Shown here one piece after another: positions 1-28,112 of a stretch of 28,112 nt of DNA. The number at the start of each line of letters is the position of its first letter. Within the stretch, counting starts at the first letter, position 1. The translations under genes were made by a program, and so were the position numbers. The stretch is from NCBI GenBank assembly GCA_000310025.1, contig FN649727.1, positions 4,015,050 through 4,043,161 on the forward strand, in the 5' to 3' direction. The notes under the pieces were generated by a model. The model was not told the origin of the DNA. It searched no databases and saw nothing but the letters and a program-made list of their open reading frames with translations. The DNA comes from Ectocarpus siliculosus (Eukaryota; Sar; Phaeophyceae; Ectocarpales; Ectocarpaceae).

Positions 1-15
1 ACGACGTTGTAAAAC
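1..15. other. Possible cloning-vector remnant at the window edge
   Basis: The first 15 bases (ACGACGTTGTAAAAC) match, from memory, the lacZ-alpha sequence next to the M13 forward priming site of pUC-type vectors. The match stops at base 16, where the vector would continue with CGACGG-like sequence. A 15-base match exactly at the edge suggests untrimmed vector at a contig end, but chance is not excluded. Confidence 0.4.
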
Positions 16-333
16 AAGCCAATTCACCTCGTGAACTCGGCAACCAGGTTACCGTCTTTTTTTTTTACCTCTGTTTTTTTTTTTTGGCGGTAACCATAAT
101 GGTGGTCGAGTAGATCATGTTGTGCGGGGTCGAGAAACCTCACTCCGCTCAACGGGGGATGATCGCACCACGTTGTGTTAAAATGGTCAAGCTTCCTCGA
201 GGCAGTTACACAGTGCTTACAACTGTCTCTGGAAGTGAAAGCACCAGAAAATAAATTAAGTCATACGTAGCTGTCATCCGTACGCAAGGAAGTAAGCACA
301 AGATGCCGAACACCCTTAGCAGGATGCAGCTCA

Positions 334-501
334 CCCTTCATGCGACTCGCCAAATACCTCACGGCGCTTCGCGCTTGGTGATGTGAGAGCCTGGTCCGGT
401 GAGAACCCGGCGTGCTCCGTCCCGGCTTTGTAGGGATGCGAGGTCAATGGTCAAACGACTACGGCATGCACGACTATGAGTATGAGTACACCCCCCCCCC
501 C
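334..501 (+). repeat. Dispersed poly-C-ended repeat, copy 1
   Basis: About 168 bp that recurs, almost unchanged, in inverse orientation at 19896-20072. It runs from a CCCTTCATGCGACTCGCC start through GGTCAATGGTCAAACGACTA to a run of 11 C at 491-501. Outside these limits the two copies are unrelated, so the unit has defined ends. Both copies keep one reading frame ending in GENPACSVPAL and a stop, so it may be the 3' end of a retroelement that ends in poly-C. The family is not recognised. Confidence 0.75.
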
Positions 502-814
502 TGGGGAGTGTGAGTTGTACAGGAAGGAAAGAGAGGATCTCGAGGAGGAAATGAGACAGAGAGGATGTGACATGGACAAGTTTGGTAAATTAGACAACAG
601 CGAAAAAACGATCGCGATAATTGGGGATAGATGGTGGGCACAAGAGGCCCTAGAGGACGGGGATAAGATGTGCAAGAATTTTTTATGGAGTTTGTGGCAG
701 AAACGTGAAGAGCTCCCAAATGTTGGTGGTGTCTCTAGTAGGTGTAGGAACGGTGCTCCGTCTCGAAAGGGACGCGTGGTCAATGGTCAAATGACTACGG
801 CAAGCAACAAATGA
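502..814 (+). pseudogene. Possible 3' fragment of a retroelement ORF
   Basis: An open frame (in frame from about 476, stop at 812-814) encodes a hydrophilic peptide. It has a CELYRKEREDLEEE segment, then DRWWAQ and KMCKNFLWSLWQKREEL. The Cys plus tyrosine/arginine-rich helix followed by a Trp-rich segment reminds me of the C-terminal tail of non-LTR retrotransposon reverse transcriptases, but no catalytic motif is present. It sits between two copies of the poly-C repeat, and its last codons run into the second copy. A 5'-truncated retroelement end is a reasonable guess; a chance ORF is the alternative. Confidence 0.25.
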
Positions 815-840
815 GTACGCCCCCCCCCCCACCCCCCCCC
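751..840 (+). repeat. Dispersed poly-C-ended repeat, copy 2 (short, degenerate)
   Basis: It shares the 3' terminal part of copy 1: GGTGCTCCGTC, then GGTCAATGGTCAAATGACTA and CGGCA, then ATGAGTACG followed by two C runs (about 819-840). The internal part is diverged. It lies head to tail with copy 1, about 250 bp downstream. Confidence 0.6.
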
Positions 841-1104
841 TGGAAAACACACCGCAGGGCGGGGGGCATCGCTTGGCCGGGCGCGTCGGGCTTCCACCTC
901 GTCGTGCTCTGCCTCTCTGTCTCGGAAGGGCTCACCTTCGGCACGCGACCCTGGCTGCTGGGGAGCGGAATCCTCCTGTTCTGCGTGGGCTCGGGCGCTA
1001 CGGTCGGGGGCAAGCGCGGAAGAAAGCCGAACCGTGCGATCTGGAGCACCAGCGGGAGGAGGGCCATGGGCGGGAATGGGGGGTCCCTGATGCCTCTGTT
1101 TCAG

Positions 1105-1200
1105 GGCGCGGCGGGGGCGGGGGGCGGGGGCGGGAAGAACGGGCGTAGCAACGGGGGCGGCGGCCGGGGGGGGGCGGGGGGTGGTAGCTGGGGGGCGGGC
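1105..1200 (+). other. G-rich tract with quadruplex potential
   Basis: The plus strand holds many runs of three to nine G separated by short spacers, including GGGGGCGGGGGGCGGGGGCGGG-type spacing near 1117-1136 and a run of nine G near 1168-1176. This satisfies the usual G-quadruplex pattern several times over. Open frames through it are glycine or proline low-complexity and not credible genes. Confidence 0.6.
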
Positions 1201-1602
1201 CGGCATAAGGAGTAGTGGTGAGATGGGCTGCGGACGCTCAGACTTGAGCGTGCGCTTGGCTCATGCTGGTGTTGCTGCTGCAGAGCAGTGTCAGCCTGTA
1301 GGAAAAGGCTGTTGGTACTGCAGCGGCAGCGGTAGTACCATAGCTGCAGAAAGGGTAGCGCCTTTTGAAGGTGGGTTTGTTGTTATTTTGTTGGCGTTCG
1401 CTTGGGCGGTGCATTTCGGTGCTTTGGGTACATAGATGAACGCTTGGGTAGCACCTCCGTTTGACCCGAGACCGGCACGTTCTCACTGTTATTTGGTGCG
1501 TACATTTTGTGGGGTTGTCGTTTTGTCTTCGTCTGTTACAAATTATGTTTGTGTTTTTTGTGCATCGGGGTATTGCACACTAGAAAACGGTTGTCGGCGC
1601 CT

Positions 1603-1638
<36 letters not shown>
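1603..1638. repeat. (GCG)12 trinucleotide microsatellite
   Basis: Twelve uninterrupted GCG units. Frames through it read as poly-Ala or poly-Arg in short ORFs with no other sign of coding. Confidence 0.9.
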
Positions 1639-1639
<1 letters not shown>

Positions 1640-1884
1640 AACGTACAACTAAGGGTTACAGCCGTCCGTTCTTGACGGATTGTGGTATTAAACGATAAAG
1701 ATTTTGTGAAAAAATACACACTTATGCCGAGGCGACCGTTGGTCGAGTCTGTGCGCATTGCACACGCCGCCAGCAAATCGCACAGGGGTCGGCTGCCTTT
1801 GGTATGAACCTAATAATGACGCGCTGATTATATTTGAGGTTCATTTACAAGTTAAAACCGCACACGACGCGGAGCCCCGCCGGC

Positions 1885-1920
1885 GGACGAGAACGCGTTA
1901 AGCGCGTGGCTTTTTCGTCC
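1885..1920. other. Inverted repeat / hairpin
   Basis: GGACGA (1885-1890) pairs with TCGTCC (1915-1920), and ACGCG (1893-1897) with CGCGT (1903-1907) around a TTAAG loop. The internal loop is asymmetric. Function unknown. Confidence 0.4.
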
Positions 1921-3267
1921 CACGAAGACGTCATGGCTTTCGTGACGTAATGTTTTTCGTGTTTCGCTATACTCCTTCAGGCAGGAAACTTAGTTTTGGG
2001 TGGGAGCTGAAGCAGCCGGTTTTCTGCCTCTCTTTCGGGTGTATCACGGGTTATTTCGTTGCACACCCTCAGCAGCGCCCCTCGACAGCTTGTATCGAGT
2101 TGTCTTAAGGAGACGCATACTCGCCTGTTACTGTTACGGTTACGTCCATTCGTGATGGTGTCATCAATAATCACGATTTGCCGTGAATCAGACATGGCAG
2201 TAAACCTCATTTCTCCAAGCGAAGTCGACCGAAAAAATCAACGTCAGTCAACGTCAGAGTCAAGCAAGCCAGTCAAGAGTCTTCCGGGCATCACCGATTC
2301 AATTTCTCATCCCCAAAAACCACTAAAATCCCAATACGGGACGATGCGCACGGGTATCTTGTCGTCATCCATCACACCAAGACACGGGACAGCCACGCCC
2401 GTCCAGCAATACCGCCGTGCAGACGTGCGCAACGAAAGAGACCCCCCCCTCGCAACCAACATCGTGAACGCCCGTCTGTGTGTCGTCGAACTCATGAGGA
2501 AGAACCAACTCGCAGCAGACGCGACCTTCCGACCTTTGTACTCGTAATCCTGGAACCAGTTTTTTGCGACGCGCCCGCTTCCGGTACACCCACGCCGGTC
2601 GCGTGCGGCTGGATACGCGTAAACCAAGACCCACACGACAGACACGTCTACCCTTCGCCTTTGTAACGCCTGTTGCGTGCCAATATCATACTTTGTACAT
2701 AAAAAGCTACCGGACAAAAAAAAAACAAAATCGCATTAGTAAAATGAAGAAATACCAGACTCGCCGTAAACGCCGTTTTCCTCCGTACAGTATTGAGGGG
2801 ACCACGGCGTGTGCCTCTCCCCTAGCACACGCACGTCACCAGTCGCCCGTCAGCGGACTGTACGTAGGCTCACAGCGACCATCTTAGCCTGTTGTCAGAT
2901 ATCGTACCGCTGTGGGAAAAAGCACTTTCTTCCGTTGCGCTATGGCCACCTCTTCTCGGGGAACAAACATCCTAGTCTACCACCACCGGCTGCCACGCAA
3001 AAGCGAGTGCGCCGGTTCCTTTTGCACAGCTATGTATCGTGGTGCTTGCATGCTCGCACGACAACAACGCCGTACAAAAAGCCAGCGCGACATCGCGTCA
3101 TCGAAAACGGCAACCATTGTGTTGCTCGCGCAGCCGCCACCAGCACGCGGCGAGCAGCCAATGAAAAAAAAGAAGGACACCCAACCCCTCTCGAACGGCA
3201 AAGAGAACGAACAGCACACCCAATCAATGCTTTCGATGTACTGCGTATCGGATCACAACATGGGGTC

Positions 3268-3304
3268 GGGGTAGCCCAAAGTGAATTAATACCTGGGCTA
3301 CCCC
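3268..3304. other. Perfect 11-bp stem hairpin downstream of tubulin copy A
   Basis: GGGGTAGCCCA (3268-3278) is the exact reverse complement of TGGGCTACCCC (3294-3304), with a 15-nt A/T-rich loop. It lies about 215 bp beyond the stop codon of tubulin copy A, so it may be in that gene's 3' UTR. It is not followed by a T run on either strand. Confidence 0.6.
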
Positions 3305-3518
3305 CGTATCGGAAAAAAACAACATAATCATTATCCCGTTTAAATACAATAAACGAGAAGGCTCACGACCAAAAACAAAACATTTTCACCCAAATCTAGT
3401 GTTGGTGGATCAAACTCGCCCCTGTGTTAAAATCGTGCCGGATACGGGAAGATTCTCCTAGCAGTGAGTTATCGTCGTTCAGAGAAACACGGAGGGCGGT
3501 GCATCTATACTTTTGGTT

Positions 3519-6500
3519 TTATCCCATGGCATCGTCGAGTTCTTCGTCCTCATCGAACTCTCCCTCCTCTTCCGCGGTGGCGTCCTGGTACTGCTGGTAC
3601 TCCGACACCAGGTCGTTCATGTTGGACTCGGCCTCCGTGAACTCCATCTCGTCCATGCCCTCGCCGGTGTACCTGTATGATTGGTCGATTTGGCGGCAGG
3701 GCAGGGTACAGTAACAGCAGTAGCAGGTTCAACAGAAGAACACAAGAGGTATTGTAGAGAGAAATACGGACACGACAGAATCGCAGAAAGGTGGGCACAC
3801 CAGGCCGAAACCGCATTTGGTGCTGCAAGGAGTGAAAAAGATAAAACAAACCTCACAGCACAAATGACGTCCTGCACCAGCATATTGCATGACACCCACA
3901 CATATGACAACGCAGGTACACACGACCGTTGTGTACTTCCCTGCAAGTCAACATGAACTACACATTTACGCACACATACACGTCTCACCAGTGGAGGAAG
4001 GCCTTTCGCCGGAACATGGCCGTGAACTGCTCCGCCACACGCTTCCAAACCTCCTGGATGGCGGTGGTGTTACCCACGAAGGTGGTGGACATCTTGAGTC
4101 CCTTCGGTGGGATGTCGCAGATGGAGGCCTTGACGTTGTTGGGGATCCACTCCACGAAGTAGGACGAGTTCTTGTTCACGACGTTCAGCATCTGATGCAA
4201 CGCGAAGGATGGCAGCGCCGCATATCACAATGAATGGCACAATCGGCATGTTGCGTTAGGGTCGTATATCCCATGTTGCAAACGTACGTCGCACGATGTG
4301 GGTGAGGGGTAAGCAGTCACAGTGCTCCTGAGCATAAGACAGACATCCAAGCACCAACGCATACCCGAAACTGAAAGTACCAACGAGGAAGACTGCTGAC
4401 CATTTCAACTTCGGCTAATCCTGGTACACGTTTCGACGCAACACGTGTGGGAGCGTTCTACGACACCTCAGCGCTCACACAACAGGAGAGAGGACAGCGG
4501 CGCAATAGGTAATGATGTGCTCTACAACGGGCCCTCACCTGTTCGTCGACCTCCTTGGTGGACATTCGCCCTCGGAACATCACGGCGCAGGTCAGGTACC
4601 GCCCGTGGCGAGGGTCGGCGGCGCACATCATGTTCTTCGAGTCAAAGCACTGCTGGGTCAGCTCGGGGACCGTCAGGGCGCGGTACTGCTGCGAGCCGCG
4701 GCTGGTGAGGGGAGCGAAGCCGATCATGAAGAAGTGCAGGCGGGGGAACGGCACCATGTTGACCGCCAGCTTCCGGAGGTCGCAGTTGAGCTGCCCGGGG
4801 AAGCGGAGGGAGCAGGTAGTACCGCAGATGGCGGCCGACACCAGGTGGTTCAGGTCACCGTAGGTGGGCGTGGTGAGCTTGAGGGTCCGGAAGCAGATGT
4901 CGTACAGTGCCTCGTTGTCGAGCATGAAGCACTGGTCGGCGTTCTCGACGAGCTGGTGCACGGAGAGGGTAGCGTTGTAGGGCTCGACGACGGTGTCGGA
5001 CACCTTGGGCGACGGGATGACGGAGTAGGTGGACATGACGCGGTCCGGGTACTCTTCTCGGATCTTCGAGATGAGCAGAGTGCCCATGCCCGCACCCGTC
5101 CCGCCTCCCATGGAATGGGTCATCTGGAAGCCCTGCAGCGCGTCGCACGACTCGGCCTCTTTGCGGACGACGTCCAGCACCGAGTCGATGAGCTCGGCGC
5201 CCTCGGTGTAGTGGCCCTTGGCCCAGTTGTTCCCCGCGCCCGTCTGGCCGAACACGAAGTTGTCCGGCCGGAAGAGCTGTCCGAAGGGGCCCGCGCGCAC
5301 GGAGTCCATGGTTCCGGGCTCGAGGTCCATGAGGATGGCGCGCGGGACGTAGCGGCCGCCGGTGGCCTCGTTGAAGTAGCAGTTGATGCGCTCGAGCTGG
5401 AGGTCGGAGTCGCCGTGGTAGGCCCCCGTGGGGTCGATGCCGTGCTCATCGGAGATGACTTCCCAGAACTTGGACCCGATCTGTGTTGGAGGGCCAGCGA
5501 TACGTGTATGAGCGGCAGCAAGCGGTTTCCGAATGTAGTACTATGTCACCAAATAGTTCCCTCATGCAGTTTAATGCTCCATAACTTGTGTAGTATTCAT
5601 TCACAGGAGGTAAGTTTCAAGTTTCATTCATATCTACGAACGTGGTAGGGTATGTTACATCCCATCGTTCTGAATATGCTGAAACACGGGCGGCTCGCGC
5701 TTGGACCCGTGAACTTACTCCGCTGATTTAATTCAATATATACATGAGTTTCGGGGATTACGCCCCCCGGGCGACAAAAAACAAGTTATGGTTCAGAGCA
5801 GAAGAGAGCGCCAAACGGAACCGCGAGAACGGGCATGAGCGGTTGTGTTAATGTGAAGCCGTCTAGGGCGCGTGAGGGTAGATCGATGCTTTCAGTAGCG
5901 CTCATCATACTCTAGCCAGCCAGCCCCAAATGATGCGGTAGCAGTGCTGGGGTGCTATTGCGACACATGCAGAGATGTGCGGCGTATCGGGCGTAAATGA
6001 CGGTTTCTCTGGTATTCCCTTCAACAACATGTATTGCGTGCAGAAGTGGGGGGGGTTTGGCGACCCAACAAGATGGCACTCGAGCCCTTCGTTTCGGAAT
6101 GAGGGTGCTTACTGAGCGCCCCCGGCCTGCCGCTGTATGCTGCCGGCCACAGGTCAGAAACTGGGGTTGCTGTCATGCAACGACAATGCTTCATACGCTT
6201 TTTCTCTCGTCAAAAGAAGCCCGAAGAATAGTACTCTGATGCAGCTCGTCGGTGCAAGCAACTTTGGCTGTTCGTGTTATGGACTACAGTAGCATGCGGT
6301 CATTTTCTTTTCGCGCCGTGGGGGAAAGTCACAAGCTACCACAAGTGCGTGATTCGAACTCACCTGGTTACCACACTGTCCGGCCTGAACGTGAACTTGA
6401 GTTGCCAGGGTAGCGGAGGAGGAGTTGGGAAGTACCAGCGGAGGGAAAGGAGAGAGAAACAGAGGGAAAGGCAAGAGAAAGAGAGACATGTTAATGTTAG

Positions 6501-6623
6501 CGAGTGGTATGCAAACATGCACGGACAGGCATCTTGCGTGTTTGCTGCAGTATGGGGCGTTCGCTCTTCCTTACACCCGACGTCCCTCGTGCCAACCCCA
6601 TCAGCCGTACCGATTTCCCTCAT
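3519..6623 (-). CDS. tubB: Beta-tubulin, copy A (5 exons, 447 aa)
   Basis: Beta subunit of the microtubule alpha/beta heterodimer; it binds and hydrolyses GTP. Exons in transcript order: 6623-6611 (13 nt, MREI plus one base), 6395-6364, 5480-4539, 4191-3989, 3672-3519. Introns are GT-AG and the spliced length is 1,344 nt, normal for the family. Visible hallmarks are the MREI start, QCGNQ, the tubulin signature GGGTGAGMG (codons 142-150 region), GDLNHLV and a C-terminal acidic tail ending [13 protein letters not shown]. Codon 155 is Ile and there is no intron there, unlike copy B. Codons 167 and 198 are Tyr and Gln. It is divergent from copy B across a 340 bp spacer. The very short first exon is supported by frame, by acceptor CTCAAG and by donor GTACGG. 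Confidence 0.97.
3532..5507. repeat. Left arm of the tubulin inverted repeat
   Basis: This segment matches 8785-12815 in reverse complement. Identity starts 27 nt inside intron 2 and stops inside the penultimate Asp codons. In intron 4 (347 bp in both copies) I see about three differences. The right arm is longer because it carries an extra intron and a transposon-like insertion. The sharp limits and identical introns indicate recent duplication with, or homogenised by, gene conversion. Confidence 0.95.
3908..3915. other. Empty target site of the insertion found in tubulin copy B
   Basis: On the minus strand the last intron reads ACCTGCGTTGTCATATG without interruption. In copy B the same CTGCGTTG is present twice, flanking a 1,715 bp insertion. 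This is the pre-insertion state of the site. Confidence 0.93.
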
Positions 6624-6963
6624 GGTTTAGCTTGGCGCGTTGATACGGAAAAGCGTTGTGTGGAGTGTGGAGGGTGGAGAAGAGGAGTGGGGAGTGAGAG
6701 GTGTGGGTTCATGTTTCACGTGACGCGAGTGTCGTGCATGAAAAATGCGGAGGAATTATATTAAAAACCGCCAGCAACAAAAACGCCTCCGTCATTGGTT
6801 CCATTCGTGGGTGCCCTCCATCCCCTGCCCCCTGCTGCAGGCTGTGCGTTTTTTTGGCCCCGGGAGCCGAGCAATCACCCCCTCTGCTCGGTCTCTTTGA
6901 ACACTCTCACCTTTTGTCTTTGGGTGCCTCTTTGTCTCCACAGCCGAACACCCGTCTAAAACC
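6624..6963. promoter_or_regulatory. Shared 340-bp divergent promoter region of the two beta-tubulins
   Basis: The start codons of copy A (6623, minus) and copy B (6964, plus) are 340 bp apart, so both 5' UTRs and core promoters must lie here. Visible candidate sites are a CACGTG palindrome at 6717-6722, ATTGG (inverted CCAAT) at 6794-6798, and an A/T-rich TATA-like stretch ATTATATTAAAAA near 6755-6767. The copy-B side is pyrimidine-rich (6860-6945), as expected for a 5' UTR or initiator region. None of these sites is proven. Confidence 0.6.
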
Positions 6964-12828
<5,865 letters not shown>

Positions 12829-14856
12829 ACGCTGGATGCCGAATGTTAGTGCTGTGTATTGTCTACGTCACTTTAACTGTCCTGATTTCTGTCCGACAGA
12901 TCATTATACTTGCTTGCTGGTCGTGCAAGAAGTGGTGGTGGATGCCCGAGGCTGGCGGGATAACGCCCGAGGACACCGGTAGTGTTACGGAAGTCTTTCT
13001 CTTTCTTTTAGTTTAATCAAAATTTGTGTTGCTGGCATTTGTTGGCCGTTTTGGCTTCTCCAGTTTTGTCTCGCTTTGTTGCCGTGGCTGTGTTGGGGTC
13101 GTCGGACTACTGGCATTGTTGTGTAGCATCGGCACTTGAGTTATTTTCCCCCCTTGGGGTTGTTTTTGTTTCTTCAGTTGTTTTATTCAAACGGGGTTTT
13201 AATAAGATTAGCCTTGACCTACTTGTTTTAAGGTCATTTTTGGGGTTGTATTCCGGCATCGTGGCATTTGCTTGTTTTTGGTTCGTCCGTGGTGATGTTG
13301 GTGTGTGTTTTAAGTCCTTCAGCCGCCTGTCGATCATTGTTTTGTTGTAGCTGTAAAGTTTGTACGTGGGTTTCGCCATCCTGTTCCTACACTCGTTCTG
13401 AACAAGATGTTGGTACCGAACGCTGCGGTGAGCGGGTGCTTGGTGCACTGGCCCACAGTACAAAGAGTTCACACGTAGTTTTGTTGTAATTTTATATCTC
13501 GCTCATTACAAGTATTATAGATTGCGGTGTCGTTTTTTGTGGGTGGGCTCGGAGACGGTTGCTGCTCATTTCCCTATTTTCCCGCCTGCGATGGCGTCCC
13601 TTCTTAAGCAGAAGGTCCACGAATTGTGTGGGAAGAGTGTTTGGAGGTTCGAGCCTATGTTTCCGGATGGGGCGTATGTTGACGAGCGGTGCTGGTTGAG
13701 CACCAGGTTTTGCATTTCGCTCCGTCGTTGAGCCTATTTTAGTTGTTTCGCCCGTTTTTTTTCTGGCGTAGGATTCTGCGTTCCCTCATCGTTACAGCCT
13801 ATGGGAAAGAGAAACATGAGATATCTTCACGGATTCACTGCTGTGCCTCCGGCAAGCTTCTATAACGCCAGTTTGAACGTCCGCACTCGCACACGCGAAG
13901 AGAAGGCGTTTTAGAGAAGAACTGGCTTGGAAATGTAGGTGTTTGTTCGCACTGCCGTGTAAAAGGAGCGAGGTTCCTTGTTTCTGATGAACTTGGGGCT
14001 GGTTTGAGTCCTGCTGCAGATGTTCTGCCAACATTGTTCCAGGCATTTGTCGTCGAAATACCTCGCAAGCAGTGCTTTACACAACGCACGCTTTTGGAAG
14101 ACAATCGGTCGAGCTCGACAAGCCACCGTTCACTCCCGCGGTGGACAATATTTATATCTCCAACACCCCACTCTCCCAAGTATGCTATGCAATATGCCGG
14201 GTGTGCCAACAGGACCTCGTCGCACCAGTGCATGTTCCAGATTGATGTTTAACTGCTTGCCTCGTTTTGCGTGCTTGATCATGTGTCACCCATTCTTACA
14301 TGTAGAAAAGTGCGACGCACCAGCGTCCATGCCGCGGAGTGCACTGACCCGGGTAATCCGTAAGGGTGACGGCAGTAACAACCCAGCAACATCCACCCCC
14401 CATAGCCACAAGAGACCCTTACATACTACCGCTTACAGCAGTATCTGTTTCTCTGGCACGCATATTCAAACCCCTTTCTAGGCGCACTTTTTTTCAGACT
14501 ATGGCTTTCGCTCCCACTCTCCTTGTGGAAAACCAAAGCAATGAACTGCAGGGTCGGGTCTGGTTCTTCCTACTGCACTATCCTCATCTACTACCTGGAA
14601 ATCTCGATTTTCCCGCCACATCTATATTCTGTCCTATATACCATTTTCCAGTAGTTCCTGCGCCAGACAGGCAGGCCAATCCCTGTTGTCTGCCTCCCCC
14701 ACTTCCCGTCGACAAGATGGGCAACAAACATCCGACGTCTGAGCATGGGGCTCATAAGTGAGCTCCGGGGCATAACATTAGAGAGACGAAAGAAAGCAAC
14801 GCCATATCGCGAAGCTGAAGCAATCGGATCTACCTGGTCTAATTTGTCACTTTTCA
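12829..14856. other. Convergent intergenic region between tubulin copy B and clpP
   Basis: No supported gene. The first 700 bp are T/G-rich and probably include the 3' UTR of tubulin copy B. Small open frames (for example 13591-13731 plus and 13911-14126 minus) have protein-like runs but no start context, splice signals or recognised motif. The right end should include the 3' UTR of clpP. Confidence 0.5.
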
Positions 14857-17592
14857 CTATTGTACAGTCCCCGAGCCTTCGCCCTCTTTTGGCCGTTTCT
14901 TGAGAATCTTGTCCACCACGCCGAACTCTATCGCTTCCTGGGCGGTCATGTAGAAGTCGCGGTCCATGACCTTCTCGATCTCCCCCACTTCCTGCGAGGA
15001 GAGGGAGGGGTCGAAGAGCACCCAAGCCCGACGCAAAGGGAAGGTACGTACGTATGGCACGTCGTTAAAAGGGCAGAAGGTCGAAAACAAGGGGGGCTCT
15101 TCCGAGAAAAAAAGGTTGGGAGTAGAGCGCCCTCCCTTCGTGAAAGGGGGGCAAGGGTGGCGAGTGGTGACGGCACGGAGTGTCAAGGCTTTTTTCGGCG
15201 TTTTTTTCACGGGGAATGGTGGGCGAGATCACGCAAATGCACAACTGGAGAGAGCTGAGAAGCTCGCTTCTGGCCCTCTCCTTTCCTGGAACGAGTGCAT
15301 ACAAGCAATCGCTACCGTCGATTTTAAACGGAGTAGTTGTCACGGAAATGATGGGGGTGCGACGAAGTTATCCATCCCATTCGTCGGGCGAGCGGATGGC
15401 GGAAGGCAGGCAAGAAAAATTCGTGCGCGCACGCGAGAGAGGAGAGGAACCAGCACGACCCAAAGAAGGCAGCGTAGCGGTAACCCAGCCTACCAGTAGT
15501 AGCACGTACGGTAGAACAGGGAGGCATGCCTTTCTCACCACGATCACGAAGAGATCCATTCGGCAAATGAATGGCGTTATTTCGCACTCTGGTTTGTGCA
15601 CGAGCTTCGTACACTACACAATTTTCGGCAACGACTGATCCTGTAGTAACGACGAAGGCCCACGGCAAGCCACATACATAAACCGCACACATCAAACGAG
15701 TACAAAAAAACTAGCAAAGAGAGAATTAAGTCACTCTGTGCGGTCCTTACTCGTCCGGTGTGCTCCGCGTAGATGTCGTTCAAGCGCGCCCTAGTCTTGA
15801 TTATCTCTTCCGCCATGATGGCGATGTCGGCCGCCATGCCGTTCGCCCCGCCACTCGGCTGATGCAACATGACCTGGGTCACCGGTTGGTTGACGAGGGC
15901 GAACAACAAACACGGGGTGGCGTTATTGTTTTCGCACCTCGTTGCTTGGTGACGCTTCGTGAACTACTGCCGGGGGCAAAGGCCTACGAGGTACAAGGTT
16001 GAATTATCCTGCCGCAAAAATGAGTGTGGCACTCCACTCGGCTTCGCCAGGACCGCTGAGCGTGTACCGCATATGTATCGCAGCGTCTCCTTTCTATGCA
16101 CATACATATCCTTTTGAGTTTTCATGTGTGGTCATCGGTTCCGTAGACTGAATAGGCACGGCACAGCCCCTCGCTTATCCCAACCCCGGCTTCTTCTTGC
16201 CTTGGCGTTCGGAAGTATGAAGCGCATCTCCGGAGAACCTGCGGTAAGAAGCAGCGATCCCATCGACGCGGCCTGCCCCATGCAGATCGTGCAGATCTCC
16301 GGCCGGACGTACTGCATGGTGTCGTAGATCGCCAATCCGGCCGTGACCACGCCACCGGGGCTGGGTTGATTTTGATTTGATTGGACAATGCATTAGAGAG
16401 CTTGTTGGTGTATTTTTGGGTTTTCCGCTCGTTCGAGTACGGCACAACGGCGGGTGCGTCATCGGGGGTGAGAGGGATATCCATCGAGAAAACAACCGAA
16501 ATACAATAAAAAGTCTGGTGGGAGGCCGAAGGAAGGTAGGTACATGGCGAGATATCTCCCAGTCAAAAGTGGTGGAACTTACGTGTGCCTGACTGACTTA
16601 CAACAGCAGTGCAGGCTTTCGACCGTGTGTTGAATTCAAGACGACTATCACAACAGCCACGACAACCGCCAGGCAAGAACGTGTACTGTTCTTCCTGGTG
16701 TGTAAGATATTCCATACACGGACGAAGGAAACCTTCGAAATAACTAGCCACAACTGCTGCATGTATGTATTTAGCACGTGCGATGGTTTCGCATGGGGGG
16801 TTGAAAACAAACACGGACGGACCTGTTGATGTACATGTTGATGGGCTTATCCGGATTCTCCGACTCGAGGAACAGGAGCTGGGCCGTCACCAACGATGTC
16901 ATCTGCTCCGTTACAGGCCCGTGCATGCAGATAATGCGTTCCTGGTTTCCGGCAGAGGGATCGATCGCCCAGTAGACAACAGCGCCATAGACGTGAAATT
17001 GTTACACCTGCGGTATCAACTTGGACTCGCGGGAAATGACCGACGTATCCGAACACGCCGCCCGAATCTCAGAAGCAGTCAACCAAACTAACTTGCTGCC
17101 GGCGTCTGCTACGAAATTCAATGTCTCAGGAAAGAGTGCACGATTACATGCAATCTCCTCAAGCCCAAATACTGCCACCTACAGCAGCAGTTAGGTAGGA
17201 TAACACACACACCCGTTGGCGTACCCGTGGTTGTATTGTGGTTGTTCTATGTACAACAACGTTGTTGGTGTGGTTGTTCTATGTACAACAACGTTGTTGT
17301 TGGTGTATCTGTCCGCGGGTTCAACATGGAATTCAAAATCCAATACACTCGTGATGGAAGCTACGCTTCCATTGAACCTACACCGAAGCATACACACCCT
17401 GAGAAGTCTTGAGTAAATATCGTAGGCGCGCTCCCCTCTTGGCGTTGACTCGAGCACCATGGGCAAGTAGTTCATCTCTACTCGGCGGGTGCTGCTATAC
17501 GCTCTGAAGGCAATCCTGCTGTTCTTGGCTGCAGCCGGTCCTGCACCAGCGAGACTAGCCAATGCTCGGGCATGTATCGATGTCAGCAACAT
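14857..17592 (-). CDS. clpP: ATP-dependent Clp protease proteolytic subunit, probably mitochondrial (5 exons, 243 aa)
   Basis: Serine protease subunit of the ClpXP complex, which degrades misfolded or regulatory proteins. Exons in order: 17592-17398, 16941-16823, 16360-16201, 15873-15751, 14991-14857; total 732 nt. The N-terminus ([13 protein letters not shown]..., RAYSS near residue 30) is basic and hydroxylated with no acidic residue, as in a mitochondrial presequence. The mature part starts near LPMVLES. Catalytic residues are visible: Ser137 in GQAASMGS, His162 in MLHQPSGG, Asp211 in MDRDFYM. The oxyanion-type loop [11 protein letters not shown] spans the exon 2/3 junction. Intron 3 has a GC donor (CCAAG/GCAAGA); all others are GT-AG. 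Plastid location is less likely because no signal peptide is seen. It lies downstream of, and on the same strand as, the hydrolase. Confidence 0.95.
17239..17303. repeat. Two-unit tandem repeat with palindromes in clpP intron 1
   Basis: GTGGTTGTTCTATGTACAAC plus AACGTTGTTG occurs twice in a row. Each unit contains the perfect palindrome CAACAACGTTGTTG, so the intron RNA could form small hairpins. Confidence 0.8.
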
Positions 17593-17900
17593 GCTACTAT
17601 AGTTCAGCTGGCGTGGCCGGTTCGCCCAGAGAGAGAGAGGTAGAGTGAGGAGTGAGGTAGCGAGGCACGAGACCTAAAGCCTCAGCAAGGCCGCCGTTGC
17701 GGCGTAATTCACATTCCTAGGGGCACCGTGATGGACAAGCGTCCCCCCCCCCTGTTCTGTGATTATGACGTCATGATGTCACATGCTGATCGTTAGGGTG
17801 GTAAATGGCGGATCCTACACACGTATGGTGTTGGGTGTCGGTGAACAATCCTGGCCATCATGCATGTGTGACTTTTTATTTACGAAGTACACATAAGGCC
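17593..17900. other. Upstream region of clpP
   Basis: This should contain the clpP promoter. It has a GA-rich stretch near 17629-17660, a poly-C run at about 17742-17752, and two TGACGTCA-like motifs near 17766-17776 (GACGTCATGATGTCA). No gene seen. Confidence 0.5.
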
Positions 17901-18233
17901 GGTCGCCCCGGTGGTCTAGTTGGTCACCTCGAAACCTTCTAGAGGTCAGGTCAGGGGTTCGAATCCCGGCGTAAGCGAGCTTTCTTGCAAAGAAAGTGAG
18001 TTTTTCTCTCGCATCCGCTCCTGGCCTACTAGTGGATAGCGCTAGTTCGTGTGTAGTATTGCTGAACTCTTCTCGCATTAAAAATCGAAGGCAAAGTACC
18101 GCAGGAGGGGAGGGTAGAGAGGGGCTCTTCTGTGTGACCACGGGTTGGAGTAAACGGCACTACTAGTTCTGTGAGCGCTGATTTGAAGTGAAGACAAAAA
18201 AATAAACAAATAAATAAATAAATAAATAAATAA
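17901..18233 (+). mobile_element. tRNA-derived SINE, copy 1
   Basis: The head resembles a tRNA: GGTCGCCCCGG start, A box TGGTCTAGTTGG at 17912-17923 and B box GGTTCGAATCC at 17956-17966, i.e. an internal RNA polymerase III promoter. A non-tRNA body of about 200 bp follows, with a 3' A-rich tail of AAAT repeats ending at 18233. A second copy with the same head and body lies at 23509-23810 in inverse orientation, which shows it is a dispersed element and not a tRNA gene. The 3' acceptor half of a tRNA is missing. Confidence 0.9.
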
Positions 18234-18300
18234 CGTTAGAGAAGGACGCAGACTATTTACTGCCCGCTCAATATCGGAACTTGTCGGGAGATCTTGGAGA

Positions 18301-18524
18301 TAGATCGGGGTTGCCTAGCTCTCTTCGTATTTTCGTTTTTCCCTTTTATTTCATGTGTGCATCTTCGCATGTACATACGGATGCCTTGTCTTGGTGTGAC
18401 TTTTCGTGCGGATCGGTAGATCGGGGGTGCCGAGCTCTCTTCGTATTTTCGTTTTTCCCTATCATGTGTACATATCTTCGCATGTGACGGATGCCTTGTC
18501 TTGGTACTTTTCGTGCGGATCGGT
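18301..18524. repeat. 116-bp tandem duplication
   Basis: Two adjacent copies (about 18301-18416 and 18417-18524) starting TAGATCGGGG and containing CTCTCTTCGTATTTTCG and GGATGCCTTGTCTTGGT. The second copy has small deletions. No coding sense recognised. Confidence 0.9.
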
Positions 18525-19323
18525 GTCATCTACAAGTATGCCGGCTATTCGTCTTTGGCGTACGAGGGCCGTGTTTCTCAAGAGAACGCAAAGAACTCCG
18601 ACGACCGAGTCAATTCGTCAAAATAACCCATGCCTTGCGCGAATCCATATTCTGGTGAAAATGGCACACCCGCGACCACCCATCCACCGATCATGTTGAG
18701 TGTTTTTGACCAGCACCACCAACTGCTTTGTACTGCTATTAACTGTTGTTCCGGGAATTCTTGGCACTTCGCACCACCATCGATTGTCGTGATTCCGCCT
18801 GCTTCTTCACTCAAGGGAATCAATCGTACTCTGCACTACAACAACCATCGATAGTATTGTTTGCAAGGGTCGCTGTATGCATACGGACCAGTTCCTGCAT
18901 CAGCAGTACGTCGAGATGCCCTCTTTTGATACGGGCTTCCAACAAAGTCATACTGGTACAACAAACAAGGATAGACAACATCCTACTTCCCTCTGACGAG
19001 ACAAGAAGCGGTCTCCAACTATACTGCATACAGAACGCGCCACCACCTAAGAACTTCGCAGTTTTAAGATAAGAAATTGAGCCTCGAAAAATTCAAAATG
19101 AGCCTCAAAAAGTTCAAAAAGGAAAACTTGGCCATGAGACCAGGTGCTCAGTCAAAAAGCCTGCAGTACACTAATATAACCTATATAGTCGCCGTGGGGG
19201 TACCCCATAAACAAAACAAGAAACGAGCCTTTGCCAACGTCTGCAGTGGCGAGGGGACCCGTTCTGTGTGAGGAGCCGCCGCACGCCCCCATTCAACCCC
19301 GCCCCCCCAGCCCGCGCCAGTCC
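18525..19323. other. Intergenic region downstream of the hydrolase
   Basis: No gene supported. A 108-codon open frame (18746-19072, plus) has no motif. The right end is probably the 3' UTR of the hydrolase. CGATTG/CATCGAT-type short repeats near 18778 and 18846 are not significant. Confidence 0.5.
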
Positions 19324-21954
19324 CTATCTCTCTGCGGTTGACGGTTCTTCCGCCTTCTCCAAGTATCGGTTGAGCGCCTTCATTACTTCGACCTGCTCGG
19401 GCTCGGTGGCGAAGCGGTGGGTTGCACCCTCCACGACGACGAGCTCGTTGTTGGGCAGCACCTTGTCGAACTCGTAAGCATCGGCTACCGGGATGGTTTC
19501 ATCCTCGGTGCCGTGAATGGTCAGGACCTTCGATCGGCTGCGATGTTTGATTATGAGAGTGTGGGACGACGAAGGCCAGGGAGGCGGCGCACAGAGATTG
19601 CCCGGGAAGCTTGCAATGAGGGCAGGGCGATGTGGCGGTTCACTTGGGATGGCCGAGAGTAGGGGAGGAAGAAGGCTGCGTAAGTATGTAAACTATCACT
19701 ATCTACAGTAGGCTACCCAGGCTTGGTTTGGCCCTCAGCTCACACGTAGACCAAACACGGTCAATCGCATGTAGAGACTCACGTGATCGATGCGGCCGTC
19801 TTCTTCATGTTGAGCGCGGCTCGCTCCTCAAAATCGCTTTTGTTGATGGTGAGATCTTCCCCCTGCAAGCAATAAGAACGGATACACCATGCAACGGGGG
19901 GCGGGGGGGGGGGGGGGGTGAGGTACTCACAGTCGTGCATGCCGTAGTCGTTAGACCATTGACCTCGCATCCCTACAAAGCCGGGACGGAGCACGCCGGG
20001 TTCTCACCGGACCAGGCTCTCACATGACCAAGCGCGAAACGCCGTGAGGTATTCGGCGAGTCGCATGAAGGGAGGACGGGGGGAAGGGAGAAAAGGTTGA
20101 CGAGCGTACTGCATGGCATAGAGGTCAAGCAGCAAGAGGAAAGTACATGGATGTGAGAACGCACAACACGGTATCACCACACACACCATTGTTCGCCATC
20201 TCTGAGATGAGTGCATAGAACCAACCTGTTTCGAGGATTCATCCGGTATAACTTCTGGAACAGCGTTAAAAAGATCAAAATGGCCCCATCGACCTCAGTA
20301 CAGCAGCTTCCTTCATTTTTGCTGTACTTCACGCAAGCGCACACAGCTCGGAACTCCAACCCTCCGGGATGAAACACATGCTTCGACCCAGCCTTATTGT
20401 TGTTCAATTCCGACAGCTTGTCTCGTGCACACCAACTCCAGCACGTCGTACCTCTTTGGCAGCAATTTTCAAACCCCAAGCCTGCGTTTTCCAGCGTCTG
20501 GGTGTCCTACTTGCGTCATCTGCCAAGGCAAACGCCCCAATCCAGACAGGCCACGTCCCCAAACGTTACAAAAACAACATGGGGACAGGACAACGCCACC
20601 CACCCTGACATTCCACTCGAAAGATCCCGTCTCCTCGAGCTGGTTCCACTGCTCCTCCGTGAAGCGTGATCGAGGGGTCTCACTCGTGTCGAATCGTCCC
20701 GCCACGTTCACCACCAGCGGGACGTCGTCAAACGTCTCCCCGTACCGCAACACGGCCGCAGCGCCTGCGTTTCCGTTCAAACCAAGAATAGCGAGGCACA
20801 AGATTGTTGACTTTCACAACCATTACAATGTTGGAGAAGGTGCGCTTTGCTGTAGAGCGAAATTAAACGTGGCGAGGCAACACCAATCCATCCAACAAAG
20901 GATATACCCACATGCCAGTTTTGGCGAGCAGTGGAGCGAAAATCTACTTGAGAGTCGAGGGAGTCCATTTCAGGTAAAGCGTGTTTGCGAGTCGGGGTAA
21001 CGCAGGGATATCTAGACAAACCAGACGATGACTCGAAGCTATTTCGAGCAGGTCGGTCGCTTGGAGCAGAACGCACAGTTGCTGGATCACGCCAACAAAA
21101 AGAAGGGTCCACATAACTGCATGGTGAAGATTGAACCATCCTTGCATCTGGTGGGTGGGGGAGCTTGGGCGTAAACTCTGAACGGCACCGGGGGCTTCAA
21201 GGGAGGCGTTTCGTTTTCTGTAACAAAAGTTTTACAACAGGGTGGAGACAAAGCAATCTTTGTCGAGAACCCATCGCTTCCACCTCGCACGAACTCCGAA
21301 CCGATTTTTACTTGTCTCGAAAGCTCTCGAAATTTTTCCTTGCAGAGGTACGCAAAGGAGGAGGATCCGTCCCATAATAATCTTACGCCTGGATGAACCC
21401 CTTTTCCAACACGCGGCCGAGAACTTCTGGCCCACTCACCCTTCGAATGGCCCAGAACGCAGTCCACGTTCCACCCGAGCTCCCTTAGCCGAAGCACAAC
21501 CGCTCGCAAGTCGCCCAGTTCTTTCTGGGAATCCATTGCCATACACACATAAAACACACATGGGTGTTGGGAGATAGTATGGTAGCCGAGCAGCGTCAAT
21601 TCTCGAAACCACAACTGGCGGCACGTCACCCCTTCCCCTTGCTCAATACCCTCCATTTCTGGAACACTACTGTACGTCTCGTCTCTTGTTGGTGCCGGGA
21701 GGGGGGCGCGGGGGGGTCGTGCATGAAAGGACCTGGCAAGACACCTCCACAAGAGGCAACACCCTCTCGTCTTGATGTACTATACTGCTCGTGAATAAGA
21801 AGAGGATGTAGTGCGGGCGAGCGGTAGCGGGCTGGAGTGGCGGGAAAAGAGTTAGGGAAAAATTATCCCCGTGTGGTCAAAGGAACTGAGGGACCAGCAG
21901 TGATCATGGGGATTGACCACCGCACGGGGGCACAGAGGGAACACCCTAACAACG

Positions 21955-21988
<34 letters not shown>

Positions 21989-23375
21989 CATTCCTCGAGG
22001 AAATATCTGCTGGACGGGGTTGTTCCCGGAGAGTATGCCTGACGCTTGCTCGACCAACACAATCTCATGCCAAACAACCTTTTCGATATCTTCACATGAC
22101 ACACAGGCCTTCATGGCGTGCCATTGCTACGAACGCCGACCACTTACGTCGTAGCCGGCGTACCTCCAGTCCCCCCCGGACTGCCCGCATCCGGCAAAGT
22201 CGAATCTGCGAAAAGAGAAAAGACAAGAGGCAGGTACGTCAGTAGGAATATCGTAGATGTCATCAGAAACGACCAGGATAGGGTTCCGATGTATGCGGTT
22301 CTTCCTCGAAGTTGGGGAGTTCTCTCTTTCCCTTCCGTCACTCCCACCAAGCCTTTGGTAACGAGTTAGTCTAGATACTTGCGAGTATATTTAGCGCCTT
22401 GGAAAACAAGCGGCCAGCCCTCTGTTGCTCATCAGCAGCGGGCGACTACGGATGGATGCGCAGGACCAATCAATGGAGGCATTGCTGTCACTACCTTCTT
22501 CTCCAGAGGCATCAAGCGACACGGTTGGGGACTCCGACTCTTGCAAGACGGACAGGCCTTGGCTCATGTTACTCGGGTGGCCGCCACTCTTCTGCTCACT
22601 GCTCTCACATGATTCTAAAGAACAGAAGTTTGGGTCTCTGAACAACATACACAATATCGTGCGCTTCTTTCGTAGCAATCATGACGGGGGGGAAGCAAGG
22701 CTGGAGTGGAGTGGTGGCAAGCAGCAATCTGCTCTATGGCCCAATTGGTGCTGGTGCTCCTGTGATTTACCCATGTACAAAATAGTGCGCAAGACCGTGC
22801 GGGGGAAAGAGGTAGGCTCACCGCAGTAGACTCCCGTACACGATCCTCCTACTTCGTGTACCGCAACAATACAAATTCACCTCTACCCATGGACAAAATA
22901 AAGTCGAGGATGCATTAGACTACTTCACGATGGAAACATAGTGGTACATGGTCTACCAGCTGTGCTGATGTGCCACAAAAGTCTGCCAAAAACATTGTAC
23001 ACCGACGCTCTCTTGCCTGTAGGTGTTCTCCGACAGCTCTCGGCTAACAAATGCGGGAACGGTGCCTTCGCAGCTCGAGCAGAGCCCGTGGCAAAGAACC
23101 CACACGGACTTAGAATCCTCTCGTTTCACCGTCAGCACGCCATTCAGATCGTAGCCCTCTTCCTCGTTCCTGACCACCAGCTGCGATTTCCCTGGTACCG
23201 TGACGGCTCCTGCTTCCCCCGCCGGTTGCACTGCTGATGATGATGTGCTCGTAGATGACATCGTTCCGCCGCTGATCGGCGCGTGTTGCGTTGATGATGA
23301 AGGGTACACGATGAACGACTGGGAAAAAGGCGCCACTGCCACTAGCACTAAAGCAAAGGCGGAAAGGAGTCGCAT
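19324..23375 (-). CDS. Alpha/beta hydrolase (serine aminopeptidase S33-like), probably plastid-targeted (6 exons, 318 aa)
   Basis: Esterase/peptidase-fold enzyme; substrate unknown. Exons: 23375-23017, 22205-22148, 21524-21440, 20764-20604, 19862-19783, 19537-19324; total 957 nt. Fold landmarks are the oxyanion HG at residues 96-97 (VLCHGLCSS), RFDFAGCGQSGG, nucleophile elbow GHSKG with Ser166, Asp260 in HGTEDETIP and His288 in GATHRF, so the triad is complete. The N-terminus is a hydrophobic signal peptide, and the likely cleavage SQS/F resembles the ASAFAP plastid site of red-lineage secondary plastids. A Ser/Thr/Pro-rich linker follows. Intron 1 has a GC donor (CTACAG/GCAAGA), and no GT alternative keeps the frame. 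Intron 4 carries a dispersed repeat and intron 2 a CT microsatellite. The enzyme class is sure; location is inference. Confidence 0.92.
19896..20072 (-). repeat. Dispersed poly-C-ended repeat, copy 3, in hydrolase intron 4
   Basis: Reverse-complement match of 334-501, with its poly-C end (seen as G on the plus strand, 19896-19918) pointing toward exon 5 in the sense of the gene. The C run lies about 33 nt upstream of the 3' splice site and so falls in the polypyrimidine-tract position. Sequence on the far side of TCGCATGAAGGG is unrelated to copy 1. Confidence 0.85.
21957..21986. repeat. (CT)15 dinucleotide microsatellite in hydrolase intron 2
   Basis: Fifteen uninterrupted CT units on the plus strand (GA in the sense of the gene). 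Confidence 0.95.
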
Positions 23376-23472
23376 TGATTAGGAATCTGCGCTATTGTGC
23401 TGCTGTCGGTGAGCGTGTCGTCGTTGGTGGACAAAAAGGTTGGGTTTTGGGGACTGCTGTGAGCATGACACA

Positions 23473-23508
23473 TCTACGAACGAAGAATATGACTCTTTAT
23501 AAATACCA
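23473..23508. repeat. Left arm of an inverted repeat around SINE copy 2
   Basis: It reads TCTACGA, then GAAGAATATGACTCTTTATA, then AATACCA. Its reverse complement recurs with a few differences at 23822-23857, on the other side of the SINE. Confidence 0.8.
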
Positions 23509-23810
23509 TTTTTTTTTTTGTCAACGCTCACACAGCACTAGTGCCGTTTACTCCAACCCGTGGAAACACAGAAGAGCTCCTGTCTTCCCTCCCCTCCTGC
23601 GGTACTTTGCCTTCGATTTTTAAAGCGAGAACAGTTCAGCACTCTCTTCCCTCTGTGTACACACAAACTAGCGCTATCCATTATTTAGGCCAGGGGCGGA
23701 AGCGAGAGAAAAGCTCACTTTGCAAGAAAAGCTCGCTTACGCCGGGATTCGAACCCCTGACCTGACCTCTAGAAGGCTTCGAGGATACCAACTAGACTGC
23801 CGGGGCGACC
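23509..23810 (-). mobile_element. tRNA-derived SINE, copy 2
   Basis: The inverse copy of 17901-18233, with the same GGTCGCCCCGG head (at 23810), A box TCTAGTTGG, B box GGTTCGAATCC, and a body ending in a poly-A tail (T run 23509-23519 on the plus strand). The body is recognisably similar to copy 1 with several small indels. It lies immediately upstream of the hydrolase gene. Confidence 0.9.
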
Positions 23811-23821
23811 AGTGCATGCCA

Positions 23822-23857
23822 TGGTATTGTAAAGAGTCATATTCTTTGTCTACGAAG
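23822..23857. repeat. Right arm of the inverted repeat around SINE copy 2
   Basis: TGGTATTGTAAAGAGTCATA followed by TTCTTTGTCTACGA, an inverted match to 23473-23508. Direct target duplications would be expected for a SINE; these are inverted. Confidence 0.8.
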
Positions 23858-25043
23858 AAAGCGGAGATGCGGGGGAGACGGAATTTGCATAGGTGGGGGG
23901 GGGTACCGTAGACGGGTTCCCAAATCTTGGCTGCACTCGCTCTTGCAAAGAGTTGCTTTGTTCTTGTCTCCTCTCGATCCCCTCTTTCTTGCCCCCATCC
24001 TGTATCGAACGCGGTCCGAGGTAACGGACTGGTGGGCAACATTTTGCACACGCTGGTGAGTTCCAATTCGGGGTTGATGCGTCCGCAGATTCCAAACGAC
24101 ACTGGTATGTAGGCTAGACTACGCATATATATGTGTACACAGATCTGTGCGAAGATATACAGCAGTAGGTTGTTGCGTCCCTTGTCTTGCCCGAGTCATC
24201 TCTCTCTTCGTTGTATGTTACCCCCGGTCTTGCTTGGATGCACTGCTACTCTCCTGAAGGTAGCAACCCTGATACGATGGCCAGGCAGGCCCAGATGTGT
24301 GGCAGGGCCAAGTTCTTGTGTACAAAGAGGATTTTCTCAGGAGGATGACACGTTTTTCTTTCATTTGTTGTTTTTCCCTGGGTGCTATGTAGTCTACAGT
24401 AGTCCACGCAATACTTCCAAATACCATACCTCTGATCGTGGAGGAGTGCATGCAGGAGTCCGCCCTTCGTTTTGCGTGTGGTGAATCAATACCACCAATG
24501 CATGAAGCAGCGTACCTCCAATGGCGCCATCACCGCGTTACAGTAGTGTAGGCGCCGCAGATATTCAGCCGGGTCGGCAAAAGGAAACAACGACATGATA
24601 ACTCAATAGCCGCAGTACCCCATCGCCCTGCAAGACAGAACGGTGTTTCACACAAACAAACAGGGCTGAAGAAAAGAAGAGAAATGGCATTTTGACATCG
24701 CTCGTTTGGTTGGCCCAACAGCACAGTCACAACAACAGACAGCGTGGTACGCCGTGGATTTATTGTGTACCGATCGACGCACCAGACCGAGCAAAACAGA
24801 TGTTCTTGATGCCGCCCCGCTCTCACCTTAAGATGGCAGGGGCAACCTCAAACAAAGCCACTTTATGGTCTATTGCCACGTGATGCATCGCGACAATCCT
24901 GTACACTCCGTCTGGCCTCATCGCTGGGATTTGGATGTAGTACAACGTCAGTGCCTTGCTTATTGGCCTCCTTTCTAACCTATCCCTGTATACCATTATT
25001 GTACAGAGGGAGAAAAACACCTGACGGAAATTCACCTTCGTCA
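23858..25043. other. Intergenic region between divergent genes
   Basis: No supported gene or RNA. It should contain the promoter of the plus-strand gene starting near 25044. A poly-G run of about 9 bases at 23896-23904 and an ATATATATG run near 24124-24133 are the only visible simple sequences. Confidence 0.5.
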
Positions 25044-27016: not shown

Positions 27017-27310
27017 GTGAGAGGATAGAGCGTGCACAGTATGCCACCTGAGATGAATTTTTGTTTTTCTCCCCACGAGAAGCATTCCACACGAAGGATG
27101 AGTGCGGGAGGGCGGGGGCGAGTACAGATTCCTATACCCTTTTCGTCTCCGTGATATCACCAAGCAGCTGGCCCGTCGCGTGCGTATATCACATGCACAC
27201 GCACGCGGCGAACATCTCGCGGAAACTGTCAGCGCACGTCAAGAACAAACCCAACACCCGGACGTTTCAAACAACTTTACCGTGCGAGCGGGGCGAGCGG
27301 CCTGCGGTAA

Positions 27311-27371
27311 CTCGCCGCACCGGGGAAGATGACCCGTCCGGTAGGTCGCCGCACCGCGGAAGATGACCCGT
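27311..27371. repeat. 34-bp direct repeat
   Basis: TCGCCGCACCGGGGAAGATG plus ACCCGT (from 27312) recurs with one change 34 bp later (from 27346). It introduces in-frame stops between the possible downstream exons of the unknown gene. Confidence 0.8.
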
Positions 27372-27765
27372 AACACCAACACCGACGAGGTAGCATTGCC
27401 GTCAACTCGCCAGGTGACAGGCGGGGAGGACAACGACACGGATGATTCGGCTGCCGCCAGCAACCGCAGCAGGAAACCGTCATCAGGAGCAACAGCAGAA
27501 GCAGCAGCAGCCAGCGCGACCGCTCGAGCCACACTGCTGTTGCCCCTGGGGAACCTCGTTGTCGTTGAGGTCGAGAGCGGCGACAACAGTGGCCCCGAAG
27601 GGGGAGCTTCTTGCCCCATTTCAGGCGGCAGCGACGTTGTTGGAGTTGTTGCACTAGGTGGTGAGGGCGGTGGTGACACCGGAGCCACCGCCACCAGCAC
27701 CGAAAAGGAACAGAAGCTGGTGCAGCTAGATGGCCGCTTCGAGCTCCTACACTGCAGAGGTGAAG
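27363..27765 (+). other. Possible downstream exon of the unknown gene (low-complexity, acidic)
   Basis: A long open frame rich in Thr, Ser, Ala, Asp and Gly (TGGEDNDTDDSAAAS, later a Gly/Ala/Thr stretch) ends in QKLVQLDGRFELLHCRGEG at a good donor (GGTACGCG). An upstream segment 27165-27281 is open in the same frame (LARRVRISHAHARGEH...). An intron of 63 or 81 bp from 27282 would join the two in frame, but this is not proven. The minus strand is also open here and Pro-rich. Confidence 0.3.
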
Positions 27766-28112
27766 GTACGCGCGGACGCGTCCAACCGAGGACTCTTTGG
27801 TTGTCATCATATCGCTGTCAAGCCTAAATACAACGTGGACCTAGCAGCATGGGGAAACCCTTAAAGTGCTTGCTCTTTCGCGCCCCATTTTGTGTTCGCT
27901 ATGGCGTGTATGGGGATGTGTTTCCAGCCCATCAACGACGGAGCCCATATCAGATTAACTCGTGGTCATTAAATCACCTTGGCGTGTCAACATCGTGACT
28001 AGCCACCAGGTGTGGCGTAGGTGGTGGGTTTGGCACATATTGTGATCATGCGAAGAAGTACCAAGTTGGGCCTGTTCTGAACACACGAAGTCGTCGCCTT
28101 GCTTCCGTGCCG
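27766..28112. other. Window end, presumed intron
   Basis: I see no gene. If the exon ending at 27765 is real, this is the start of its following intron and the gene leaves the window. Confidence 0.35.

Follow-up and report, generated by a model that had tools for sequence, protein, structure and literature searches.

The stretch of DNA analysed here (the window, 28,112 nucleotides of Ectocarpus siliculosus) contains two beta-tubulin genes, A and B, which are very probably old, separate head-to-head paralogues whose bodies have recently been homogenised by gene conversion between the inverted arms. Both genes are intact and divergently transcribed, and they lie on a 9.28-Mb contig (C2) of the 189-Mb genome. 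Their alignment is a mosaic of near-identical and unrelated segments that conflicts with the intron positions and the type of protein tail, and a second head-to-head pair of the family is present in the same genome.

The first-pass annotation had proposed a head-to-head beta-tubulin pair, and splicing bears this out, with an intact protein obtained from each strand. The two longest exons of B score above the cutoff for Pfam PF00091 (Tubulin) and PF03953 (Tubulin_C). In window coordinates, the gene models are as follows.

3519-6623, minus strand: beta-tubulin gene A, start to stop codon, spliced to an intact 447-aa protein from five exons
6623-6611, 6395-6364, 5480-4539, 4191-3989 and 3672-3519, minus strand: exons of gene A (splicing model)
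6396-6610, minus strand: intron 1 of A, at codon 5 phase 1, a position unused by the other four beta-tubulin genes
6624-6963, no strand: intergenic region, the start codons of A and B being 340 bp apart (exon models)
6964-12828, plus strand: beta-tubulin gene B, start to stop codon, spliced to an intact 447-aa protein from six exons
6964-6991, 7174-7190, 8812-9228, 9561-10085, 10433-10635 and 12675-12828, plus strand: exons of gene B (splicing model)
6992-7173, plus strand: intron 1 of B, at codon 10 phase 1, a position common to the other three copies, C9m, C9p and C27

The intergenic region is a candidate shared divergent promoter region of A and B. The distance between start codons, here as in the second pair (340 and 289 bp, respectively), is below the limit of about 600 bp used for divergent pairs (PMC7784034). 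In that study, 61.7% of the genes flanking the examined intergenic regions of Ectocarpus are in divergent pairs, whose median spacing is 409 bp, and pairs under 600 bp have a common nucleosome-depleted region and uncorrelated transcript levels. Against this background, the head-to-head layout is ordinary in Ectocarpus and by itself no sign of coexpression.

MacKay and Gallant are said to have described several beta-tubulin genes in Ectocarpus variabilis in 1991. A search of the present genome with an exon of B returned 11 matches, namely, five beta-tubulin loci (99-100%), three alpha-tubulin-like loci (45%) and three weaker ones. Besides A and B, the beta-tubulin loci comprise C27, which is unpaired, and two loci that form another head-to-head pair.

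Contig C9, about 4684959-4690008, minus strand: beta-tubulin gene C9m of the second head-to-head pair
Contig C9, about 4690298-4695889, plus strand: beta-tubulin gene C9p, its start codon 289 bp from that of C9m

All five genes are intact when spliced and qualify as eukaryotic beta-tubulins. We found no tubulin partner of C27 in the 10 kb examined around it; about 340 bp upstream of it there appears to be a divergent nontubulin gene, recognised by eye as an open ATG frame (L014, about 6979), which would again give the common head-to-head arrangement. C9m starts with MGREI (L012, about 9009), one glycine more than the usual MREI start of beta-tubulins. In animals, the autoregulation of tubulin mRNA takes the MREI start as its signal, and C9m might escape such control if it exists in this alga. 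A limited sample of flanks gave no common neighbourhood between the A/B, C9 and C27 loci of the kind that block duplication of a pair would leave: flanking open reading frames (window 1-3400 and 12901-28112; C9 stretch 1-3800 and 15101-19501) had 10 matches in the C9 and C27 stretches and the window, of which 8 came from a single repeat with which the C9 stretch ends and two were weak (29.5% over 88 aa and 35% over 34 aa). As a control, we compared the alpha-tubulin-like loci (L006, L007 and L008, labelled alpha by their 45% identity to the beta query), two on contig C13 and one on C10. The C13 copies lie 69 kb apart in opposite orientations and are 96.6% identical over a 2,052-bp block, apparently including introns, and 81% over a further 571 bp; the C10 copy matches each of them at 95% over 1,001 bp and 91% over about 210 bp. 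The likeness of these copies over long blocks indicates that unlinked copies, too, can be quite similar.

Near-identity between A and B is confined to the following segments, which were delimited by a self-BLAST of the window and by alignment of the introns.

3532-5511, minus strand: homogenised arm of A
8781-12815, plus strand: homogenised arm of B, broken by 9229-9560 and 10717-12431
10086-10432, plus strand (B), and 4192-4538, minus strand (A): homogenised 347-bp intron after codon 329, with 3 differences and no gaps

Near-identity had been proposed to run from the end of intron 2 to the penultimate codons. Its extent stands, with 99.0% identity from the last 27 nt of intron 2 through codon 443, introns counted. 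The likeness is not continuous, however, but comes in three inverted blocks of 451, ~1,155 and 384 bp (97.8, 99.2 and 99.7% identity, respectively), B being interrupted twice. The two coding sequences differ at 26 of 1,344 nt; when A or B is set against each of the other three copies (six comparisons), the count is 109 to 154 of 1,344. The likeness of A and B is thus far above chance. Compared with 5,000 permutations of the polymorphic sites, the longest run of identity between A and B has a P of 0.0006 for all 220 sites and 0.0068 for the 187 silent ones. The placement of the 26 differences is strongly uneven: 4 fall in the 45 nt of exons 1 and 2, 10 in positions 403-487 of the coding sequence, 7 in the last 13 nt and only 5 in the other 1,201 nt. 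Outside positions 403-487, exclusion of which raises the identity of the body to 99.5%, the bodies differ by 0.4% in exons (5/1,201 nt) and 0.6% in introns (4/663 nt). Because the introns are as alike as the exons, selection on the protein is not the cause of the likeness. The 347-bp intron had been noted to carry about three differences, exactly the number we count, and the last intron differs at 1 of 316 positions once an insert in B is set aside. Introns 1 and 2 and the 3' flanks are, as the annotation also held, unrelated: intron 2 measures 883 bp in A and 1,621 bp in B and shares just its final 27 nt, and the flanks diverge from the last codons onward. Within a single gene, introns included, the pair thus switches sharply between near-identical and unrelated sequence, the pattern by which gene conversion is recognised.

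The positions of introns and the protein tails tell of another relationship. Intron 1 lies at codon 10 in B, C9m, C9p and C27 and at codon 5 in A alone. B, C9m and C9p have a Met-Met tail (DDGMM in B) and an intron after codon 154; A and C27 are without this intron and end in DDAMG. Thus, B is grouped with C9m and C9p by the position of intron 1, the codon-154 intron, residue 163 and the tail type, and A with C27 by the last three of these. One marker is out of line, the last intron, which is absent from C27 only and would join A to C27 only if it was lost in C27 or moved by conversion. Among the best 120 of 7,977 protein matches (8 without the motif and 18 with more than one), residue 155 is isoleucine in 105 of 130 motif occurrences, valine in 23 and leucine in 2, a variation so free that the residue counts for little as a class marker; there is variation at residue 163 as well (I 97, M 19, V 14). 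No brown-algal name is visible among the same best 120, some of the names being partial and the collection clustered at 90%. Nor did viral contigs, scanned with a single tubulin exon of B, yield a confirmed relative.

The codon-154 intron of B coincides with the cluster of differences at positions 403-487.

9229-9560, plus strand: 332-bp intron after codon 154, in B and not in A
9169-9585, plus strand (B), and 5123-5039 (A): unconverted islet, coding positions 403-487 on both sides of the codon-154 intron, with 10 A/B differences in 85 nt

Of these differences, 7 fall in the 60 nt before the intron and 3 in the 25 nt after it. Within 60 nt of the intron, A and B differ at 10 of 121 nt, against 5 of 1,165 elsewhere in positions 46-1331 (Fisher P = 7.6e-8, which is optimistic, the plus/minus 60-nt window having been picked after the cluster was seen). 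Over the same 85 nt, A or B differs from the three unlinked copies at 12 to 18 positions, and C9m differs from C9p at 2. The islet is best read as old divergence that conversion missed, although it is slightly less diverged than the unlinked copies are. Its class signal is mixed: at several silent sites before the intron, A is like the C9 genes and B like C27. The C9 pair, with the intron present in both genes, has no islet there.

Trees of the five genes give further, if mixed, information; their partitions were drawn after the A/B differences were seen, so that the P values are optimistic. Of the seven trees evaluated for the body, that with A and B as sisters alone survives the approximately unbiased (AU) test, the other six having a P of 0.00027 or lower, though the SH test does not reject two of these six (P = 0.118 and 0.119). 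For the 5' exons plus the tail (58 nt), the A+B tree is rejected by AU (P = 0.024) and not by SH (P = 0.098), and for the tail alone it is again rejected by AU (P = 0.028). The body and the 5' exons plus tail therefore support different trees under AU, while A+B is not rejected by three of the six segments examined: the 45-nt 5' exons, which slightly prefer A+B and reject no tree by AU; the islet, by which A+B and the two rivals closest to it all survive; and the three unconverted parts pooled (143 nt). Given these mixed partitions, the case for old paralogy rests mainly on the intron positions, on the tail and on introns 1 and 2, which are unrelated in A and B.

The C9 pair repeats the division into diverged 5' ends and a homogenised body. 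C9m and C9p differ at 35 of 1,344 coding nt, 7 of them in the 45 nt of exons 1 and 2 and 28 in the 1,299 nt of the body (P = 9.7e-5), whose exons are about 98% alike. A BLAST comparison of their introns gave no match, save where exon matches run roughly 10 to 70 nt past some borders, and the run test that was applied to A and B is weak here (P = 0.041 for all sites and 0.23 for silent sites). The C9 pair was thus homogenised exon by exon, and apparently less recently than A and B. Third-position GC is 0.925-0.94 in the four paired bodies and 0.84 in the unpaired C27 body, which would fit GC-biased conversion without being a test of it; in the 15-codon 5' ends of all five genes it is 0.47-0.67.

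The second interruption of arm B is a mobile element.

10717-12431, plus strand: nonautonomous DNA transposon of 1,715 bp, inside the last intron of B only

It is bounded by terminal inverted repeats CACACCCTGTACAAC and an 8-bp target duplication CTGCGTTG, and its interior holds two 42-bp repeat arrays. From the size of the target duplication, we take the element to be hAT-like. Among its further matches in the genome (L016-L021), three are full-length copies at 99% (L016, L017 and L018); these three and the partial match L020 each have 8-bp duplicated flanks of their own. The three full-length copies suggest that the transposon was active recently. As the flanks of the insert in B match A almost perfectly, either the element entered after the last conversion or conversion bypassed it. 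The former is most likely.

Elsewhere in the window, a ClpP-like protease gene with several exons occupies 14857-17592 on the minus strand. It is 99% identical to an Ectocarpus siliculosus protein, and among the eight matches listed for its product (spliced by eye) are those of Ectocarpus sp. 6 (93%), Scytosiphon promiscuus (82%) and Pylaiella littoralis (73%). Two inverted repeats are also present, 334-501/19908-20072 (94%) and 17901-18181/23521-23810 (85%); the family of the former also matches the C9 locus and is probably a dispersed repeat.

On the basis of this pattern, we infer the mechanism, the number of tracts and their direction. Nonreciprocal ectopic recombination between the inverted arms, 3.3 kb apart, would copy one body onto the other over the stretch from the end of intron 2 to codon 443. 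At least two tracts would be needed, flanking the codon-154 intron, a heterology that is envisaged to halt conversion. The 5' ends, promoter sides and last codons would have stayed private because no shared sequence was left there for pairing. A direction from B to A is mildly favoured: an otherwise C27-like A would have taken the body of B, including the last intron that C27 lacks, and the bodies of A and B are nearer to the C9 genes than to C27. This is a lean and no result, as loss of the last intron in C27 explains the same data. The annotation had also predicted inversion and cruciform potential from the inverted arms. Crossing-over between the arms is possible and would turn the centre around, exchanging the two 5' ends. 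The cruciform potential finds no support, as a cruciform calls for a short spacer and the arms are 3,269 bp apart.

A more ambitious reading, to which we give a low but appreciable probability, is that both head-to-head pairs are self-homogenising units, with uniform bodies, heterology barriers guarding isotype residues and occasional crossing-over between the arms. Conversion would then keep the filament-forming body uniform inside each pair. The intron and tail heterologies would act as the barriers, protecting at C2 residues 135, 155 and 163 and the tail, and each inversion of the centre would swap which promoter drives which tail.

Gene conversion explains the data better than a simple recent duplication, as had been proposed, because the intron positions and the tail conflict with the body; the islet around the intron heterology and the repetition of the split at C9 lend it further support. 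A recent inverted duplication followed by replacement or rearrangement of the 5' end, introns 1 and 2 and the flanks in one copy suits the near-identity of the arms, which would fit a young event, and the 45-nt 5' exons do not speak against A+B. However, it is very unlikely: while the introns diverged by just 0.6%, intron 1 would have had to move and the codon-154 intron to be lost or gained, 0.9-1.6 kb of intron 2 to be replaced, 10 changes to accumulate in 85 nt and the tail of one copy to come to match C27, and the codon-154 intron site and tail type of B are in any case common to the C9 pair. Less probable still, in our estimation, is an assembly artefact in which a collapsed or mispolished repeat makes the copies look alike, as a single contig holds both copies, which have introns, flanks and a transposon of their own, their longest near-identical block is ~1,155 bp, and C9 shows a comparable pattern.

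Purifying selection or codon bias alone, keeping the coding regions alike without conversion, might be thought adequate for a highly conserved protein encoded by five bodies of uniformly high third-position GC (0.84-0.94), but it is barely conceivable, given that A or B differs from the other three copies at 22-32% of third positions while A and B differ from each other at 4.2%, and it is contradicted by the equally alike introns. We regard as just as improbable a template of reverse-transcribed spliced message in place of the neighbouring gene. This idea draws on the C9 pair, whose likeness ends within tens of bases of the exon borders, although it does reach about 10 to about 70 nt beyond some of them. 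At C2, two introns are homogenised over their full length, transposon aside, which requires a genomic template at least there. A spliced-message template is thus refuted for the C2 pair, though it might apply to the C9 pair.

Several consequences follow if A and B were homogenised in this way. The ends of the tracts are readable in one genome against two heterologies of different age, and within B the codon-154 intron with its unconverted islet can be set against the transposon without one. With two head-to-head pairs of one family, a single genome also offers a replicate study. Beta-tubulin is sometimes used as a phylogenetic marker or reference gene; in Ectocarpus it may not track gene history, and its use as a marker calls for caution. 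Our literature search, to whose coverage most subscription papers are external, returned no report on a brown-algal case or on head-to-head tubulin conversion, nor one on Drosophila amylase.

Similar histories are known from other paralogues. In Drosophila, the amylase and heat-shock genes combine an inverted arrangement with homogenised bodies and free flanks. These genes are cited as cases of ectopic conversion (PMC1533823), and the beta-tubulin paralogues of Leishmania have coding regions evolving in concert, probably by ectopic gene conversion, with flanks distinct for each locus (PMC1533823). The concerted coding bodies and private flanks of A and B resemble the latter, but the Leishmania evidence is drawn from between-species comparison of loci on different chromosomes, whereas the Ectocarpus genes are linked head-to-head, with homogenised introns and an islet inside the gene. 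The mammalian TUBG1/TUBG2 and BMP8A/BMP8B, the latter inverted, are long-lived pairs in which some exon/intron blocks are homogenised and others have diverged (PMC2720389), just as in A and B; those pairs are about 45 and 235 kb apart and were studied by comparing orthologues from many species, whereas the arms of A and B are 3.3 kb apart in one genome. Conversion has also been proposed between neighbouring paralogues in inverted orientation in Caenorhabditis, the two hsp16 modules 416 bp apart among them, and in other cases there, as in A and B, tracts reach into introns (PMC3966223). The hsp16 repeat consists of whole two-gene modules, in contrast to the single-gene arms of A and B with their unrelated 5' ends and promoters. 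The C9 pair, in which exons are alike and introns diverged, resembles the ruminant lysozyme genes, whose exons convert while introns and flanks diverge (as cited in PMC1533823). Gene conversion between paralogues in pairs is thus already known, and A and B are a new example, to which the Ectocarpus genome adds the second pair and the intron islet.
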